Position numbers and translations under genes: made by a program. A DNA stretch of 64,000 bases from Rhizomicrobium electricum. Its GTDB lineage: Bacteria > Pseudomonadota > Alphaproteobacteria > Micropepsales > Micropepsaceae. The notes under the pieces are model-generated. The model did no database searches and was not told the DNA's origin. It saw only the letters and a list, made by a program, of their open reading frames with translations. Location: positions 372,001 through 436,000 of the forward strand of contig NZ_JAASQS010000002.1 of the NCBI RefSeq assembly GCF_011762045.1. Reading direction: 5' to 3'. This document shows, one piece after another, positions 2,445 to 57,706 of this stretch. The first letter of the stretch is position 1, and the number at the start of each line of letters is the position of its first letter.

Positions 2445-4368
<1,924 letters not shown>

Positions 4369-4374
4369 AGTCCC

Positions 4375-44409: not shown

Positions 44410-44423
44410 TGTCGCGCGTCTCA

Positions 44424-44513
44424 TCCGAAAACCGCGTTGCACTTTTCGGGGCGCGCAGGTTTGAATTGTCGCGCGCCCGGTCCGAAAACCGCGTTGCACT
44501 TTTCGGGGCGCGC
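44424..44513. repeat. tandem REP-like repeat between EIIA and ptsH
   Basis: A perfect 33-bp unit occurs at 44424-44456 and again at 44481-44513, 57 bp apart. Each copy contains the inverted arms CCGAAAA and TTTTCGG separated by CCGCGTTGCAC, so each can form a hairpin. GTCGCGCG precedes both copies. Similar CCGAAAA...TTTTCGG palindromes are recalled as abundant extragenic repeats in alphaproteobacteria. The hexamer GTGATG lies on both sides of the block (44406-44411, 44516-44521). Confidence 0.8.
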
Positions 44514-46595: not shown

Positions 46596-47357
46596 CTATC
46601 GCTCCAACCGCCAGAACGGCACCACTTTCTCGATCTCGAAACCCAGGCTTTGCGCCAGATGCAGCGAACCGGTGTTTTCTTGCCGGCAGGCCCAGACCGG
46701 CGTGAGGCCGCTCCCAAGGCATTTGCGGATCATTGCCACGGCGACGGCGCGTGCGAGGCCCTGCCCCCGAAACGCCTCGCGCGTCTCGATGCCGATTTCC
46801 AGCCAATCGTCGAAGCGCGTCGCGGCGAAGGCCATGGCGCCCACGTCACCGTCTTTTTCCGCCATCATGCCGCCGCCGTGATCCTGGAATGCGGCGAAAT
46901 CCTTCCAAAACGCGCACGGCGTGACGTGGACATCGGACAGATCGTATGCGGCCTCAATCAGCGGCCGCACCGTCCAGCCCGGCGGCACCGCGTGGGCGGC
47001 GTAACGGCTTTCGAAAACGGCGCGGTTGAAGCGGAAATTCACGCGGTGGAAGCGCTCGGCCCGGAGCTTTCCGTCCCAATCGAGATGCGCCCAGCGCGGA
47101 TCGACCTGCAGCCACTCGTCCCGCACGCGATAAGCGCCCGCGTTGAGATGGTCGATCAACGCCGGAAAAGCGTGATCCACGCCCTCGCCCCACACCAGGC
47201 TCATGCCGTAATCGTGCAGCGCATGGGCGGCACCGCCGTCACGCCACACGCGTCCGCCGCTCACGCCCTCCAGCACCGCGCGCGCGAAACCGGTGAAGAT
47301 CGGCACGTCCTTCAGCGGCGGAAGGCTCGGATAGGATTGGGTGGGAAATTCGATCAC
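46596..47357 (-). CDS. GNAT family acetyltransferase
   Basis: A 253-residue protein. The C-terminal third is a GNAT acyltransferase: CoA loop EIGIETREAFRGQGLARAVA and the ending SLHLAQSLGFEIEKVVPF. The N-terminal two-thirds are a variable domain that may bind the substrate. Related large GNAT proteins (PF12746 type) act on unknown small molecules. It stands alone; a 279-bp repeat lies upstream. Confidence 0.82.
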   Translation of the reverse strand: MIEFPTQSYPSLPPLKDVPIFTGFARAVLEGVSGGRVWRDGGAAHALHDYGMSLVWGEGVDHAFPALIDHLNAGAYRVRDEWLQVDPRWAHLDWDGKLRAERFHRVNFRFNRAVFESRYAAHAVPPGWTVRPLIEAAYDLSDVHVTPCAFWKDFAAFQDHGGGMMAEKDGDVGAMAFAATRFDDWLEIGIETREAFRGQGLARAVAVAMIRKCLGSGLTPVWACRQENTGSLHLAQSLGFEIEKVVPFWRLER

Positions 47358-47499
47358 GGCAGCACCTCTGGAAGCCGTTTAACCAAGGATTTCCAGCCGG
47401 CGGAAGGCGACATGAAGGGCGAAGATGGACAAATGATAACACTGTAAATTTCACTTGCGTGTTCTCTATATGTTCTTCATACTCATCGGCGCATTTTGG

Positions 47500-47778
47500 A
47501 ATGGAGAGCCACGACAGAGCAGCGGTGAGGGACTTCGCGATCCCCGTACCCGCCGAACAACGCGAGATAGAACTGACCCAGGACGCCCAGCTCGCGTGGG
47601 CGCCAGACGGTTGATGGCCGGCGATCAGCACCAACGCCTCAGCCGTGCGGGTATCAGGGTTTGCAGACTGTGCCTGTCACCGGCCGCTTGAGTGCGGTCC
47701 TTGCTGGCGCCCTGCATCCGGAGGGCACTCCCCGAATATAGGCGGACCAGCGAAAAGCGGCCCGCCTTCGGCACATTT
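47500..47778 (+). repeat. 279-bp long inverted repeat, copy A
   Basis: Identical to the reverse complement of 54887-55165 except for one base near its start (C here, T in copy B, read in this orientation). It contains two hairpin-forming parts: GGCGGACC with GGCCCGCC (with one G-U type mismatch, around 47740-47765) and GCCCT...AGGGC (around 47710-47727). Its right end lies 8 nt from the ggt stop codon. Ends show only a tetranucleotide match (AATG on each side read inward), so no true terminal inverted repeat or transposase. The rest of the 47358-47499 stretch shows no gene. Confidence 0.93.
47501..47614 (+). CDS. 37-residue ORF inside the 279-bp repeat (speculative)
   Basis: ATG 47501 lies at the second base of the repeat and the frame runs 37 codons (start MESHDRAAVRDF, end QLAWAPDG). 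The only base that differs between the two repeat copies is the third base of its Ser codon (AGC/AGT), a silent change. The matching frame in copy B is 55051-55164 on the minus strand. A ribosome-binding site is not evident. It may be a tiny gene carried by the repeat or chance. Confidence 0.25.
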   Translation: MESHDRAAVRDFAIPVPAEQREIELTQDAQLAWAPDG

Positions 47779-47786
47779 TGAAGAGG

Positions 47787-49157
47787 CTACTTCTCCTTCA
47801 CAGGCACCAGCGCACCCAGTCCGTTCGCCGCCGGATCGGGCAGCGCGGAGCAGGTTCGTCCCGAACACACGATGGCATTGACGGTGTCGTAAGGCGCCAC
47901 GCCGGTGGTGCGCAGGTCTTTGCGGGTGAGGATTTCGTCGCCGCCCGCGATCCGCGCCAGGGCATAAGCGATCGCCGCCGCGCCATTGGGACCGCCGGCG
48001 CCGGCGCCCGCGAGTTCGGCCGGATCGTCGGCTTGGCGGGCCGCGATGATCGGCGACAGGAAAGCCGAGGCCAGTCCCGCCGCGCTCGCCGACGGAGCCT
48101 TGGCCAGCGTCACGCCGGTGCCGCGCACCGTATGGCCCGAGCCGAACGGCCCGTTCATGGTCACGGCGCATGCCACCGCCTGTCCGCGCGCATCCATCGC
48201 GACAAAGCCGGTGGCACCGAGATCCTTCGGCAGTTCGGCGACGTGATAATCCTTGAGCGACTGCTGCATCGCCCACACCACCGCCGCCTGGATGTCCTTG
48301 GCGCCGACCGAGGTCGACTGGGCTTTGGCGAGATTGTCGAACAAGACGCCCGCGAACGCGCCCGAGCCGACCTTGTTGGACGGCAGGAAGACGTAATCGG
48401 AGCCGATCCGGGTCACGCGCGGCGTCGATATCTCCGCTTTGGTGGCGGCGAGATCCGCTTTGGCGATAGTGCCGCCTTCGCTGCCGCCGTAGGCCGCGAT
48501 CTTGTCGGCCACGGCACCGCTATAGAACACGTCCGACCCGTTGATGCGGATCGCCGCCAGCGTGTCGGCGAGTTCGGGATTGAAGACCACCGTACCGGCA
48601 GCCTTCGGCTTGCCGGATTCGTCGAGGTAGAGCGCGGCAAGGCCCGCGTCCAAGCGGATCACATCGCCCGCCTCAGCGAGGCGGGTTGCCAGAGCTTTCG
48701 AGATCGGCACGCCGGTGCGCGCCTGGACTTCGGCCGGCGACACCACCTTCTGCCACGGCAGCGCGCCGTAAGACGCCTGCATCACGGCAAAGCCGCGAAC
48801 ATTGCCCGGCACCGCATAGGCTCCGGGCTGCGCCGCATCGCGGGCTTCGAAATCGAATTCCTGGGTCGTGTTCTTGGCCGGATCGTGCACGATGCAGATG
48901 CCGCCGCCGCCGAGGCCCGCCGCCACCGGATAAGTGACCGAAAGCGCGAAATACATCGCCGTCGCGGCATCGACCGCGTTGCCGCCCTGCCCCAGGATCG
49001 CGGCACCCGTTTTGACCGCGAACGGCTCGTCGCCCACGACCAAGGCACCGGCGGTTCCTTCGGTGCTGTTCAACCCTACAGTGCTGCCGATATCAAGCGA
49101 ACAACCGGTCAGCAGGAGCATGCCGGTAAACCCGGCTAAAGCGCGAGAATACAACAT
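47787..49157 (-). CDS. divergent gamma-glutamyltransferase-like lipoprotein
   Basis: About 456 residues, shorter than typical gamma-glutamyltranspeptidases (about 550-580). A lipobox (LLLTGC) suggests outer- or inner-membrane anchoring. Ntn-hydrolase features: GGNAVDAATAMYFAL early, and the autoprocessing site LGATGFVAMDARGQA with a putative nucleophile Thr near residue 316, then TMNGPFGSG. The usual lid motif PLSSMSP is degenerate (AFLSPIIA). It may be an active variant or one with altered specificity. ATG 49157 is used. Its stop is 8 nt from repeat copy A. Confidence 0.75.
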   Translation of the reverse strand: MLYSRALAGFTGMLLLTGCSLDIGSTVGLNSTEGTAGALVVGDEPFAVKTGAAILGQGGNAVDAATAMYFALSVTYPVAAGLGGGGICIVHDPAKNTTQEFDFEARDAAQPGAYAVPGNVRGFAVMQASYGALPWQKVVSPAEVQARTGVPISKALATRLAEAGDVIRLDAGLAALYLDESGKPKAAGTVVFNPELADTLAAIRINGSDVFYSGAVADKIAAYGGSEGGTIAKADLAATKAEISTPRVTRIGSDYVFLPSNKVGSGAFAGVLFDNLAKAQSTSVGAKDIQAAVVWAMQQSLKDYHVAELPKDLGATGFVAMDARGQAVACAVTMNGPFGSGHTVRGTGVTLAKAPSASAAGLASAFLSPIIAARQADDPAELAGAGAGGPNGAAAIAYALARIAGGDEILTRKDLRTTGVAPYDTVNAIVCSGRTCSALPDPAANGLGALVPVKEK

Positions 49158-49266
49158 GAAATGGCCGTAATCCTTGGCTGTTGTCGAATTCACTTGAGGC
49201 CCGCCCTCCGTTGACGCAAGCACGTCGCGAACCTACCGTCGTGGGCAGAAGAGGAGAGTTCAAGCT

Positions 49267-53079: not shown

Positions 53080-53532
53080 ATGCCGAGTATCGATTCTTCA
53101 GTAATCCGGGAATTGGCCGAGCTGCTTACAGAAACCGGTCTGACCGAAATCGAGGTCGAGCAAGGCGGCGCCCGCCTGCGCGTCGTGCGCCAGGTGATAA
53201 ACTCCTATGTCAGCGAAGGGCCGATGCGCGCTGCTGCGACGCCGGGCGCGGCGTCGACTGGAGAGACCCCTGCCCCGGCCAAGCCGAAAGGCCCGCCCGC
53301 AGGCGCCGTGCCTTCGCCGATGGTCGGTACTGTCTATGTGGCGCCCGAGCCGGGCAAGCCGCCGTTCGTCAAGGTCGGCGACAAAGTCTCGGAAGGCGAC
53401 ACGCTGCTGATCGTGGAAGCGATGAAGACCATGAATCCGATCGTCTCTCCCAGAGCCGGCACGGTCACGGAAATCTGCGTCAACGATGCCGAGCCGGTCG
53501 AGTTCGGCCAAACCCTGCTCGTCATCGCCTGA
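53080..53532 (+). CDS. accB: biotin carboxyl carrier protein of acetyl-CoA carboxylase
   Basis: About 150 residues. An N-terminal helical region (IRELAELLTETGLTEIEVEQGG) and a Pro/Ala linker lead to the biotinyl domain; K116 in EAMKTMN carries biotin. It holds the carboxyl group for fatty-acid synthesis. ATG 53080 is preferred because GGGAAGGGAAAT precedes it; a start at 53020 would overlap aroQ by 4 bp and add 20 residues. The last base is shared with the accC start. Confidence 0.96.
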   Translation: MPSIDSSVIRELAELLTETGLTEIEVEQGGARLRVVRQVINSYVSEGPMRAAATPGAASTGETPAPAKPKGPPAGAVPSPMVGTVYVAPEPGKPPFVKVGDKVSEGDTLLIVEAMKTMNPIVSPRAGTVTEICVNDAEPVEFGQTLLVIA

Positions 53533-54878
53533 TGTTCGACAAGATCCTCATCGCCAATCGCGGCGAGATCGCGCTCCGCGTCATCCGCGCCTGCAAGGAG
53601 ATGGGCATCGCCACGGTGGCGGTGCATTCCACCGCCGATGCCGAAGCCATGCATGTCCGCCTCGCCGACGAGAGCGTCTGCATCGGTCCGCCGCCGTCGG
53701 CCCAAAGCTACTTGAACATTCCGGCGATCATCGCGGCAGCCGAAATCACCGGCGCGCAGGCGATCCATCCCGGCTACGGCTTCCTGTCGGAAAACGCCCG
53801 CTTTGCCGAGATCGTCGAAGAACACAAGCTCACCTTCATCGGCCCGACGCCGGAACACATCCGCGTCATGGGCGACAAGATCGTCGCCAAGCAGACCGTC
53901 AAGGAAGCCGGTATTCCGACCGTTCCGGGTTCCGAGGGTGCCATCGAGAGCGAAGAACAAGCGCTGAAGATCGCCGCCGACATGGGCTATCCCGTGCTCA
54001 TCAAGGCGACGGCGGGCGGCGGCGGCCGCGGCATGAAGGTGGCGACCAAGCCGGAAGAACTTTCCTTCGCCCTGTCGACGGCCAAGGCGGAAGCCAAGTC
54101 CGCATTCGGCAACGACGCGGTCTACATGGAGAAGTATCTCCAGACGCCGCGCCATATCGAGGTCCAGGTCCTGGCCGACAGCCAGCGTCATGTGGTGCAT
54201 CTCGGCGTCCGCGATTGCTCGCTGCAGCGCCGTCACCAGAAGGTCTGGGAAGAAGCGGGCAGCCCGGCGCTCAACGACGCCCAGCGCGACGAGATCGGCG
54301 GCATCGTCACCCGCGCGCTCGAAAAGCTCGGCTATCTCGGCGCCGGTACCATCGAATTCCTTTACGAGGACGGGCATTTCTATTTCATCGAAATGAACAC
54401 CCGCCTGCAGGTCGAACATCCGATCAGCGAAGCGATCACCGGCGTCGACGTGGTGCGCGAACAGATCCGCATCGCGGCGGGACTGCCGCTGTCGTTCGAG
54501 CAGAAGGACATCGTCTTCTCGGGTCACGCCATCGAGTGCCGCATCAACGCCGAGAACGCCTTCACCTTCCAGCCTTCGCCGGGGCTCATCAAACTGTTCC
54601 ACGTGCCGGGCGGCCTGGGCGTGCGCTTCGATTCCCACGTCTATTCCGGCTATCGCATCCCGCCCTATTACGACAGCCTCGCCGGCAAACTGATCGTCCA
54701 CGGCAAGACGCGCAACGAAGCCTTGATGCGCTTGCGCCGGGCACTCGACGAACTGGTGGTGGAAGGCATCGAAACGACCATCCCGCTGTTCCAGATGCTG
54801 GTGCGCGAACCCGACATCATCGACGGGAACTACAACATCCATTGGCTGGAGCACTTCCTGGCGAAGAAGGGCGTGTAA
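53532..54878 (+). CDS. accC: biotin carboxylase subunit of acetyl-CoA carboxylase
   Basis: 448 residues. An ATP-grasp enzyme: the N-terminal LIANRGEIALRVIRAC, glycine-rich loop KATAGGGGRGMKVA, the catalytic region with EMNTRLQVEHPISEAITG, and the C-terminal FDSHVYSGYRIPPYYDSL. It carboxylates biotin on AccB. Full length. Repeat copy B starts 8 nt after the stop. Confidence 0.98.
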   Translation: MFDKILIANRGEIALRVIRACKEMGIATVAVHSTADAEAMHVRLADESVCIGPPPSAQSYLNIPAIIAAAEITGAQAIHPGYGFLSENARFAEIVEEHKLTFIGPTPEHIRVMGDKIVAKQTVKEAGIPTVPGSEGAIESEEQALKIAADMGYPVLIKATAGGGGRGMKVATKPEELSFALSTAKAEAKSAFGNDAVYMEKYLQTPRHIEVQVLADSQRHVVHLGVRDCSLQRRHQKVWEEAGSPALNDAQRDEIGGIVTRALEKLGYLGAGTIEFLYEDGHFYFIEMNTRLQVEHPISEAITGVDVVREQIRIAAGLPLSFEQKDIVFSGHAIECRINAENAFTFQPSPGLIKLFHVPGGLGVRFDSHVYSGYRIPPYYDSLAGKLIVHGKTRNEALMRLRRALDELVVEGIETTIPLFQMLVREPDIIDGNYNIHWLEHFLAKKGV

Positions 54879-54886
54879 GGCCCTTT

Positions 54887-55165
54887 AAATGTGCCGAAGG
54901 CGGGCCGCTTTTCGCTGGTCCGCCTATATTCGGGGAGTGCCCTCCGGATGCAGGGCGCCAGCAAGGACCGCACTCAAGCGGCCGGTGACAGGCACAGTCT
55001 GCAAACCCTGATACCCGCACGGCTGAGGCGTTGGTGCTGATCGCCGGCCATCAACCGTCTGGCGCCCACGCGAGCTGGGCGTCCTGGGTCAGTTCTATCT
55101 CGCGTTGTTCGGCGGGTACGGGGATCGCGAAGTCCCTCACCGCTGCTCTGTCGTGACTCTCCATT
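54887..55165 (-). repeat. 279-bp long inverted repeat, copy B
   Basis: Reverse complement of copy A (47500-47778), differing at one base by eye. The two copies bracket ggt, the M48 protease, dsbA, thiSG, aroQ, accB and accC. As in copy A the AAATGTG end lies 8 nt from a stop codon (here accC). Upstream of its other end is a perfect inverted repeat (55172-55191). Confidence 0.93.
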
Positions 55166-55171
55166 GCATAA

Positions 55172-55191
55172 TTGCAACACTATAGTTGCAA
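55172..55191. promoter_or_regulatory. 20-bp inverted repeat with -10-like core beside repeat copy B
   Basis: TTGCAAC-ACTATA-GTTGCAA is a 7-bp perfect inverted repeat with a 6-bp centre. It contains TATAGT on both strands. A good -35 is not found at the right distance for the minus strand (TTGACT is 20 bp away). Probably an operator for a nearby promoter. The remaining 55192-55364 stretch shows no gene. Confidence 0.5.
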
Positions 55192-55364
55192 ACAAACAAC
55201 GAACAGTCAAGCGCGAAAATTCGAGGATTTCCGCGGCCTCGCCCTGGTGATGGCGTAGGTACAACTACTTATGTCCGCAGCTTTCACTGCCGACTCCGAT
55301 ACCTGACAGCGCTTCATTAAGACCGCCCACGTATTCTCCCTTACAGCTTTTCGGCGAGATTTCG

Positions 55365-56621
55365 ATGGCGGGTGAGCGGCGTTCCAAGGCGGCAGGCGGG
55401 TTTGCCCTCCCCTTTGCGCTGACGGTAAGCCTGTTCGCGCTTTGGGGCCTCGGGCACTGGTGCTTCGAAGCCCTGATGCCGGAATTCGCCCGGAACTTCC
55501 GGTTGAGTAGCAACGCCCTCGCCGCGACGCAGAGCATCTACAGCATCGTCTATTTCGTCGGGGCGATTCCGGCGGCGCTGTTTGCGCGGCGGATCGGCGG
55601 CAAGATCGCCATCCTGGTGGGACTGGGCGCCATCGGCATCGGCTCATTCCTGTTTTATCCCGCCGCCCACACCCTGAATTACATGTATTTCCTCGCTGCC
55701 GTGACCATCATGGCCTGTGGCTGGGTAGCGCTCGAAATCGTGGCCAATCCGCTGGCGGCGAAACTCGGACCGCCCGAAACGTTCGTTTGGCGGCTGAACC
55801 TGGCGCAGTCGTTCTATCCGATCGGAGCCTTGGCCGGCATGGCGATCGCCGCCTGGCTGGTCACCCGCCACGAGGCTTTGCCGGACCAGGCACATGCCGC
55901 TGCGATTGCCCATCCCTATATCGTGCTGGGTGTGGGCGTGCTGCTGCTGGCCTATCTGTTCGAAGAAGTGCGCTTTCCGCATATGGCCGACGACCGCGTC
56001 AAAGGCGGGAGCCTCATCGCCGTCGGCAAACTGTTGCGGGCCCCTAAATTCCTTTTCGCGCTCGCCGCCCAGGCTTTGAGCGTGATCGCCTTGGTGAGCA
56101 TCTGGTCGCCCGAAGTGCGCGCCCTGGTCGACGTCTTGCCCGGCCGCCCGGCGGGCCTGCTCGGCAGCAGTCTGGCCTGGATGCTGGTCGCGCTCGGTGT
56201 CGGACGGTTCGCCGGCACGGCCCTGATGCGCACCATCGCACCATCCACCGTGATGGCGGGCTTCTCGCTCGGCGGTATTCTTTGCGCCCTGATTGCTGCC
56301 GTTTCGAGCGGCCCGATGGCTGCCATCGCCGTGCTGGCGGCGAGTTTCTTCATCTCCATCACGTGGCCGACGATCCTGGGGCTGGCGATCCGCAACGCCG
56401 GCACCAGCATGAAACCGGCAACCGCGCTGATCTGCATGGCGGGCGCCGCAGGCGGCATGCTGCATCAGTTCATCCGCGTCGCCTTGCCGTTCCCGACAGC
56501 GCAACTCGCCATGCTGCTGCCCGCGATCTGCTTCGCGGCAATCGCCGCGTTCGCGTACGTCAACCGCGACAAGCCGCTTAGTCCCGCGGACGAGACGCTT
56601 TCCGGCGACGACGACGCCTGA
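55365..56621 (+). CDS. MFS transporter, FHS/FucP-like sugar porter
   Basis: 418 residues with about 12 helices. Motifs typical of the FucP type: a glycine-rich first half (ALTVSLFALWGLGHWCFEALMP), IVANPLAAKLGPPETFVWRLNLAQSFYPIGALAG, and SITWPTILGLAIRNAG in the second half. It probably imports a neutral sugar by proton symport. It is inserted between accC and aat, which are often adjacent in relatives. It overlaps the next convergent gene by 44 bp. Confidence 0.88.
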   Translation: MAGERRSKAAGGFALPFALTVSLFALWGLGHWCFEALMPEFARNFRLSSNALAATQSIYSIVYFVGAIPAALFARRIGGKIAILVGLGAIGIGSFLFYPAAHTLNYMYFLAAVTIMACGWVALEIVANPLAAKLGPPETFVWRLNLAQSFYPIGALAGMAIAAWLVTRHEALPDQAHAAAIAHPYIVLGVGVLLLAYLFEEVRFPHMADDRVKGGSLIAVGKLLRAPKFLFALAAQALSVIALVSIWSPEVRALVDVLPGRPAGLLGSSLAWMLVALGVGRFAGTALMRTIAPSTVMAGFSLGGILCALIAAVSSGPMAAIAVLAASFFISITWPTILGLAIRNAGTSMKPATALICMAGAAGGMLHQFIRVALPFPTAQLAMLLPAICFAAIAAFAYVNRDKPLSPADETLSGDDDA

Positions 56622-56925
56622 GCAGTATCACCACGATACCGAAAACAAGCACCGGCGCCGCGACGCGCAGGAGTGCGGCAAAGAACTTGGCTCTGGCGAC
56701 AGGCTCGGTCAGCAACGACGGATCGGCGAGAACGGGGGTGATGTCGGAGACGCTCCGAAGCGCACCGCAGATGAGCGCCGCCAAAATCGCCAGCGCGAAC
56801 ACCACGACGACGGTCATGAACCAGCGCCGGTGGGCATGGTAATTGGGTGGCTGATAATCCTCGCCAATGTAGCGATCCGTGGGATCGTGCGCCGAAACGC
56901 GGCGGTGACCAGCCGGAAAGACCAT
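56578..56925 (-). CDS. small two-helix membrane protein
   Basis: About 115 residues. N-terminus soluble (MVFPAGHRRVSAHDPTDRYIGEDYQPPNYHAHRR), helix 1 (FMTVVVVFALAILAALICGAL), a loop, and helix 2 (VLVFGIVVILLRRRRRR). GGGAGAGG precedes ATG 56925. Function unknown. The 3' end overlaps the MFS gene. Confidence 0.65.
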   Translation of the reverse strand: MVFPAGHRRVSAHDPTDRYIGEDYQPPNYHAHRRWFMTVVVVFALAILAALICGALRSVSDITPVLADPSLLTEPVARAKFFAALLRVAAPVLVFGIVVILLRRRRRRKASRPRD

Positions 56926-57034
56926 CGTCCTCTCCCTCCCTAAGGCGATCACACGCTCCGATTGAGGAAATGTTGTGGCAACGATAACGCGCTTGAGAGG
57001 TGAAATTTTCTGTCGGGGGCCCTAAGCTTCTGCC

Positions 57035-57706
57035 ATGCACGCGCCCAAGATTACTCCGGAGATCGTGCTTCGCGCTTACGCCGAAGGACTGTTTCCTATG
57101 GCCGAGCGGCGCGACGATCCCGACCTGTTCTGGGTCTCGCCCGACCAGCGGGGCGTCTTTCCGCTTGAGACTTTCCATGTCGCGAAACGGCTCGCCCGCA
57201 CCGTGCGCTCGGACCGGTTCACCGTTACGGTCGATACCGAATTCCGCGATGTGATGCTGGCGTGCGCGGCGCCCGCCGATGGGCGCGAAGACACCTGGAT
57301 CAACGACGAAATCCTGCGCCTCTATACGGCGCTGCACGCCAGCGGCCATGCGCACTCCGTCGAAACGCGGCTGAACGGCGAACTGGTCGGCGGGCTCTAC
57401 GGCGTGACGTTGGGCGGCGCCTTCTTCGGCGAGAGCATGTTTTCGCGCGTGACCGACGCCTCCAAGGTTGCCCTCGTCCATCTGGTGGCGCGGCTGAAGG
57501 CGGGCGGCTTCCGCCTGCTCGATGCCCAGTTCCTGACGGCGCACCTCGCCAGCCTCGGAGCGATCGAAATTCCGCGGGCGCGCTATCTCGCCAAGCTCAA
57601 TCAGGCGATCACGACCAAGGCCTTCTGGCCGACAAACTCCCCGGCCGGCGAACCGCTTGGCGCCTGGCCCGGCACCTTCGTGATGCAGATCATCCAGCAG
57701 GCATAG
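57035..57706 (+). CDS. aat: leucyl/phenylalanyl-tRNA--protein transferase
   Basis: 223 residues. Adds Leu or Phe to the N-terminus of proteins with Arg or Lys ends, marking them for ClpAP (N-end rule). Motifs: [31 protein letters not shown] early, [31 protein letters not shown] in the middle, [15 protein letters not shown] late. Full length. Confidence 0.97.

Follow-up and report, generated by a model that had tools for sequence, protein, structure and literature searches.

The closest described systems share single traits with the locus studied here. DinR of Klebsiella pneumoniae is a LexA-controlled small RNA (sRNA) made on DNA damage (PMC10907235). In the Alphaproteobacterium Caulobacter, ChvR and other sRNAs are induced by mitomycin; for nine damage-induced sRNA genes no SOS box is reported near the start sites, and ChvR is under the control of ChvI-ChvG (PMC6237742). 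LhrC1-5 of Listeria are homologous sRNAs which answer to a single stress regulator (PMC4132741, PMC5880928). The BRE repeat of Betaproteobacteria is a repeated, mostly intergenic element which was found during an sRNA search (PMC3110155). Here we analysed 64,000 nt from Rhizomicrobium electricum (contig NZ_JAASQS010000002.1, positions 372,001 to 436,000), in the following called the window, in which two copies of a repeat lie behind accC (copy A) and a gamma-glutamyltransferase-like gene, ggt (copy B). We propose, with a probability of roughly 0.78, that these repeats represent multi-copy genes for a small non-coding RNA, each with its own LexA-box promoter and with a hairpin end at a convergent gene, which are homogenised by gene conversion.

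Both copies form an inverted pair of 286 nt with 99% complementarity. The block common to both, defined by this pair and by alignment, corresponds to the putative RNA gene and is located at 54887-55172 on the minus strand for copy A, which would be transcribed from right to left, and at 47493-47778 on the plus strand for copy B. The accC stop lies at 54878 and the AAATGTG end of copy A runs from 54887, leaving a spacer of 8 nt (54879-54886, no strand assigned). Likewise ggt, encoded on the minus strand, has its stop at 47787 and the AAATGTG end of copy B runs from 47778, again leaving 8 nt (47779-47786, no strand assigned). An earlier, sequence-only reading of this DNA had stated that both copies start 8 nt past a stop codon, which is confirmed at accC and ggt. 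The two spacers (GGCCCTTT and CCTCTTCA) are unrelated, hence no common motif extends beyond the repeat end at accC and ggt. The genome holds one more close copy (L003), which is 91% identical. Its identity block extends 8 nt further out, and AAATGTG is found 16 nt from the stop of the convergent frame. The same sequence type thus gives 8, 8 and 16 nt within one genome, and in other copies the distance between hairpin and convergent stop varies from overlap to 263 nt, so that a general rule of exactly 8 nt does not hold. Variable distances are what the sequence-only reading had named as its refutation, and for the exact figure they are thus observed. The suggestion of a terminator-like signal in the same reading fits, as the shared end is a hairpin (54894-54933 and 47732-47771) between convergent transcripts. 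The 8 nt therefore represent the gap between stop codon and hairpin at both loci.

The R. electricum genome (G000; 4.73 Mb, 16 contigs) was searched for further copies. A repeat search returned seven places, namely the two window copies, the 91% copy and four diverged ones, and 10 copies were recovered with R1, a covariance model built on the conserved core. A second model (R2) was built from 25 copies, which thus match by construction, and was used for searching only. It gave 12 matches in this genome, two of them weak beyond ten clear ones, and 11 under stricter filters. Among 69 genomes of the genus R2 matches occur in 5, with 12 in G007, 5 in G019 (74% complete), 13 in G049 and a single weak one in G057. 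Diverged RNA relatives without a clear box were found at the accC locus of G051, where R2 missed it, and in G057. A class-wide search of 385 genomes resulted in six foreign matches with E-values of 0.0015-0.0091, which is about chance level; the strict filters limit what this says on absence outside the genus. The exact core pattern occurs in 14 stretches of a species-genome collection, 13 of them in three relatives and one in Tardiphaga, and it was not found in viral contigs. We consider the Tardiphaga match a chance hit since promoter and flank are unmatched. Rfam 15 contains no relevant family: at the gathering threshold the window gave only a thiamine pyrophosphate (TPP) riboswitch elsewhere (4252-4372, minus strand, RF00059, 62 bits), and scans of L001-L007, L100, L020, L028 and L008 at permissive E-values yielded only matches below gathering.

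An alignment of the seven places from the repeat search revealed two invariant termini, a hairpin on the side of the protein gene and, opposite to it and read toward the protein gene, a TTGnnn hexamer, a GTTC-N7-GTTC box within a spacer of 17 nt and a -10-like hexamer. In copy B (plus strand) promoter alignment places the -35 hexamer TTGCGT at 47455-47460, followed by the LexA-type box GTTCTCTATATGTTC at 47461-47475 and, at a spacing of 17 nt, the -10 hexamer CATACT at 47478-47483, with a predicted RNA start at ~47490. In copy A (minus strand) the corresponding elements are TTGACT (55205-55210), an imperfect box of the form GTTC-N7-GTTT (55190-55204) and AACTAT (55182-55187), with a predicted start at ~55175. 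The box is imperfect in the accC-locus promoters of G007 and G049 as well. We searched for this promoter pattern with either GTTC or GTTT as second half and one optional spacer base. It is found upstream of 27 of the 34 distinct copies in four genomes and of all ten in R. electricum. Of 20,000 stretches of 420 nt drawn at random from the window, in which the two true sites are included, 136 show it. The stricter form TTGnnnGTTC-N7-GTTC has 13 sites in the 4.73 Mb genome and none in the reversed control; by coordinates, nine of the 13 are upstream of RNA copies. GTTC-N7-GTTC alone occurs 142 times versus 107 times for the control. The short box is thus not rare, its placement inside a promoter is.

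LexA is encoded in this genome (TIGR00498, 174 bits, above the cut-off of 111; PF01726 also above its cut-off). A GTTC-N7-GTTC box (GAACTAAAGTAGAAC) is located 73 nt before the lexA ATG, and such boxes also precede uvrA (by 101 nt) and ssb (by 76 nt). GTTC-N7-GTTC is also the LexA box published for Caulobacter (PMC12700426, PMC9578287). Because of its presence at lexA, uvrA and ssb and its match to the published box, we take the element in the RNA promoters as a LexA box. Judging from this box, LexA probably binds there and expression is probably induced by damage.

Two further features were observed in these upstream regions. In many copies (e.g. L009, L014, L015 and L028) the -35 hexamer is closely preceded by a conserved element which terminates in TTGTCGCACCC or a similar sequence. 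Elements of the TTGTCGCACCC type are present also in some box-less copies and may be a site for a second regulator. Moreover, L140 (G000, contig C7, 56300-57100), L144 and L145 (both G049) and L146 (G007) form a sub-family with the same upstream element and no GTTC-N7-GTTC, which is conserved between species.

The predicted RNA has a length of ~250-420 nt and contains three hairpins. At the 5' end, a hairpin with a GCGG...CCGC outer stem is located at 47522-47553 (plus strand) in copy B, where the inner stem is only partly formed, and in the same block at 55112-55143 (minus strand) in copy A. The core hairpin CCGC-TTGAGT-GCGG, placed by alignment and pair counts, is found at 47684-47697 (plus) and 54968-54981 (minus). 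The 3' end is formed by a terminator-like hairpin, which adjoins the ggt stop in copy B (47732-47771, plus) and the accC stop in copy A (54894-54933, minus). Covariation was evaluated against shuffled alignments. Terminator and core hairpin together show 31 double-changed cells versus a shuffled mean of 7.6 (reached in 0 of 500 shuffles), while the core hairpin itself is nearly invariant and hence uninformative alone. For the 5' hairpin 17 double-changed cells were counted in 19 copies versus 4.2 (0 of 500); all seven inner pairs show compensatory changes and 80% of the inner cells are paired. Sliding the partner columns by 1-3 positions lowers the paired share from 95% and 87% in the two counts to 30-55%. 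Two helices, terminator and 5' hairpin, thus covary across the aligned copies.

The alignments behind these counts were restricted as follows. L012, L029-L031, L033 and L100 were left out of A2 and A3 for being near-identical, decayed or diverged. A4 consists of 19 of 22 retrieved rows, with L008, L017 and L021 omitted owing to a different 5' layout; the pair counts therefore apply to the standard layout. L013, L014, L025, L038 and L137 were missed by the motif retrieval of A4, and duplicate, cut, decayed or distant copies (L012, L022, L028, L030, L031, L033, L100, L112, L113, L117, L121, L125 and L134) had been skipped beforehand. Two elements proposed around the core, a closing helix and a GGGG/CCCC hairpin, belonged to the structure behind R2 and were rejected because pair counts gave them no support; in this test the share of paired cells was reached by 30 of 500 shuffles and the pair types by 403. 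Long variants of the RNA (L018, L021, L008 and L142) have GTAAG/ATAAG-type motifs in the middle of the molecule, which are repeated in some, e.g. CGTATAAGCCCGTATAAGCCCGCGTAAG in L018.

All ten copies of R. electricum are antisense to a neighbour gene and located behind its 3' end. A convergent gene was counted as coding-like if its third-position GC was at least 0.70 and above the second-position GC. Such a gene is faced by 29 of the 34 copies in the four genomes, including all ten of R. electricum. In 23 of the 29 its stop lies within ~40 nt of the hairpin or overlaps it, with 80 to 263 nt in the remaining six; automatic placement of the hairpin end was inaccurate for a few copies (L008, L013 and L024, with the stop in or just past the U-tract). 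For R. electricum alone this close arrangement applies to nine of ten copies. The 5' neighbour is divergent at nine of ten copies as judged by the best-scoring frame, three of these frames having a weak coding signal. With a mostly divergent 5' neighbour and a convergent 3' neighbour, the RNA usually lies between two genes that share one orientation and is antisense to them.

Several of these places are common to different species, others are not. Shared loci were recognised by the last residues of the convergent gene, and the same gene was found in two to four genomes for accC, ggt, two genes which we take to be caspase-like and flavin-reductase-like, and the loci ending RPEMYGA, YVAIDKR and RREGVAVGD. 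The label x09 for L009 and L112 denotes sequence likeness and was not counted as a shared locus. Many bodies (~210 nt) are most alike within a genome: in G000 accC and ggt are 100% identical and the caspase-like locus reaches 90%, the same three loci show 96-98% in G049, and five loci show 95-100% in G007. Between G000 and G049 the same loci are ~97% identical, yet over 86 nt only. Exceptions are the flavin-reductase-like copies of G000 and G049, each of which has its best match in the other (88%), and G007 x32 versus G019 x27 (91%). At three loci (accC, ggt and the caspase-like one) the promoters and flanks of G000 can be aligned with those of G049; for accC the promoter aligns with G007 as well. 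The tract shared by accC and ggt reaches from 38 nt past the start of the -35 hexamer to the hairpin, which is close to the predicted transcript. At the ggt locus of G007 the copy (L033) no longer has a promoter and retains little of its body, in keeping with the decay of an inherited position. Taken together, gene conversion among mostly fixed copies is the best explanation for the near-identity within a genome.

These data suggest the following mechanism. LexA bound in the promoter spacer would repress each RNA gene. On DNA damage, RecA and the self-cleavage of LexA would free the promoters, and about ten RNAs would be made together. Transcription toward the protein gene would end at the hairpin, which would probably serve the end of the convergent gene as well and so terminate both transcripts. 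This position of the hairpin makes the repeat look as if it began right after a stop codon. Near-identity would result from gene conversion among copies which for the most part stay in place. The conservation of the 5' part (GGAG... and the GCGG hairpin) and of the loop points to regulation in trans by redundant copies, and we give even odds to such a set of regulators. A bolder and rather doubtful version is that the SOS response of this lineage is largely RNA-based. A dozen near-redundant LexA-repressed RNAs, which hold nine of the 13 -35/box sites and thus more than all other genes, would be released together and kept uniform by repeated conversion; with the accC/ggt tract resembling the predicted transcript, copying through RNA would be possible.

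A number of observations weigh against our interpretation. The promoter pattern is absent from seven of the 34 copies. At the accC locus L018 and L125 are imperfect, L033 is decayed, L022 and L134 are cut by contig ends, L132 has a box at a spacing that the pattern misses, and L137 has lost it. The tenth clear copy in R. electricum, which is the accC copy, carries GTTT as second half-site, and no clear box is present in the sub-family L140 and L144-L146 or in the distant relatives L100 (G051) and L113 (G057). We examined 11 hand-chosen boxes (the four non-RNA sites of the 13, six further ones and lexA), and only three of them (lexA, uvrA and ssb) adjoin recognised SOS genes, which leaves the other four genome-wide TTGnnnGTTC-N7-GTTC sites without such a neighbour. 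With eight of 11 boxes away from recognised SOS genes, the pattern alone is insufficient as proof of LexA control. Regarding the RNA, the covariation shuffles make no correction for relatedness, the structures derive from the very sequences that were tested, and the rejected helices around the core count here as well. Without their last 75 nt, 16 transcripts fold like shuffled sequences (mean z +0.18; -1.32 with it; 40 shuffles each), of 30 freely folded transcripts only 13 have a hairpin where the 5' hairpin is predicted, and the U-tract is clean in some copies (L008, L014) and poor in others including both window copies. Regarding inheritance, the caspase-like, akpr and adpr copies of G007 share one promoter type and body, unlike their counterparts elsewhere; either conversion took in the promoter, or the copies were re-inserted. 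Moreover, there is no copy at accC in G019, among the best 30 of 41 accC matches. Given the G007 promoters and the G019 site, some past movement of copies is conceivable.

The latter points are those on which a small mobile element could be based, similar to a miniature inverted-repeat transposable element (MITE) or a repetitive extragenic palindromic (REP) sequence, whose insertions would fall behind reading frames or within terminators and bring the promoter along. Many dispersed copies would fit to such an element, as would matches in only five of 69 genus genomes (one of them weak) and the antisense position behind a gene in ten of ten copies. Yet several loci are common to different species. 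The left ends of ten copy-pair blocks are not fixed; in the eight with a locatable -35 hexamer, two of which are cut by a contig end, they lie anywhere between 241 nt ahead of this hexamer and 65 nt past it, and by eye no inverted repeats were found at the block ends of these ten pairs. Target duplications are not apparent either: 15 of 18 testable flank pairs have no 4-nt word in common and three share 4-5 nt. Diverged copies have retained promoters and hairpins, and the core pattern has no exact match in the viral contigs. We thus regard mobility as the origin of this arrangement as unlikely. The corresponding claim of the sequence-only reading, a mobile element targeting the ends of reading frames, is poorly supported in view of the shared loci, the varying block ends and the lack of terminal inverted repeats or convincing target duplications among the pairs inspected. 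It is further weakened by promoters and flanks which align between G000 and G049 at three loci and by bodies which are homogenised per genome.

A second possibility is action in cis, in which transcription from an SOS promoter would run into the convergent gene and reduce its expression when DNA is damaged. Geometry speaks for it, with all ten copies in R. electricum facing a convergent gene and nine of them within ~40 nt or overlapping. On the other hand, a conserved RNA body and homogenisation within the genome are hard to square with pure collision, the named convergent genes have no common function, and the hairpin parts the two units. Collision as the main role of the copies is accordingly given a low probability.

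Similarly low is the chance that the box is bound by a regulator other than LexA. This would account for the TTGTCGCACCC-type element as a second conserved site just upstream of -35, also in some box-less copies, and for the sites away from recognised SOS genes (four of 13 genome-wide, eight of 11 examined). It has to be set against the occurrence of the very same GTTC-N7-GTTC near lexA, uvrA and ssb and its identity to the published Caulobacter box.

A LexA-controlled mRNA for a small peptide, for instance the SOS toxin of a type I toxin-antitoxin pair, has to be considered since known SOS-induced small RNAs and peptides, as far as the literature at hand goes, are often of this kind (tisB, dinQ, symE), and a GGAG motif follows the predicted start in many copies. 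The body is, judged by its pattern of changes, non-coding: substitutions are spread evenly over the codon phases (166/163/166 in nine copy pairs, not all of them independent because some copies are reused), close copies often differ by non-triplet indels (1, 2 or 7 nt), and the longest frames of 30 transcripts revealed neither a shared reading frame nor a conserved short hydrophobic one. A peptide mRNA is thus very improbable. Least likely of all is a bidirectional, REP-like terminator or 3'-end element of the upstream gene with no RNA gene of its own, which would explain the covarying hairpin near or overlapping 23 of 29 convergent stops, but not a conservation that runs 200-400 nt past the hairpin up to the LexA-box promoter and a 5' part with its own covarying hairpin.

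The genes around the two window copies differ in how firmly they can be named. The convergent neighbour of copy A is accC, encoding biotin carboxylase (53532-54878, plus strand; NCBIfam TIGR00514, 705 bits, above cut-off), and its divergent 5' neighbour is a fucP-like sugar transporter (55365-56621, plus; TIGR00885, 208 bits, below the cut-off of 280). Copy B faces ggt (47787-49223, minus; TIGR00066, 152 bits, below the cut-off of 358). Its divergent 5' neighbour (46596-47357, minus) is acetyltransferase-like at best, with a single weak NCBIfam match of 27.9 bits far under the cut-off. Within 53532-57706 the RNA gene and the fucP-like transporter separate accC from a gene at 57035-57706, which we take to be aat. 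This presumed aat directly follows accC in G019, G043 and G048, among the best 30 of 41 accC matches. Elsewhere in the window, at 44410-44513, two direct repeats of 47 nt are 57 nt apart, 91% alike and contain GAAAACCGCGTTGCACTTTTCGG. Similar-looking stretches of the form AGCGCTTC..CCGAAAAGTG adjoin some of the hairpins (L019, L023 and L140) and perhaps represent another intergenic repeat family.

If our interpretation of multi-copy RNA genes under LexA-box promoters is true, about ten such genes per genome would be an unusual RNA output for an SOS response. They would allow redundant (sibling) sRNAs to be put to the test and would illustrate how gene conversion can maintain likeness among small RNA genes. 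A repeat which seems to seek stop codons can then be an RNA gene whose terminator abuts that of its neighbour.

Compared to DinR, for which LexA control has been described and for which the likeness here is predicted from the promoter box, there are about ten separate genes, each with its own LexA-box promoter, and no known target. The likeness to ChvR and the other mitomycin-induced sRNAs of Caulobacter, i.e. alphaproteobacterial sRNAs induced by DNA damage, equally depends on a predicted induction. LhrC1-5 are regulated by LisRK and belong to another phylum; the comparison with them is one of arrangement. BRE is shorter (~40-90 bp) and in tandem at some loci, and a LexA-box promoter of its own is not described in the accessible part of that report. 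Searches of the open-licence literature found, among the entries listed, no LexA-box sRNA family in Alphaproteobacteria, no matching sibling or multicopy sRNA family and no concerted evolution of sRNAs. Taken together, the RNA matches no described RNA family that we found and, by analogy, seems to resemble a LexA-controlled sRNA such as DinR which is arranged as a sibling family in the manner of LhrC.
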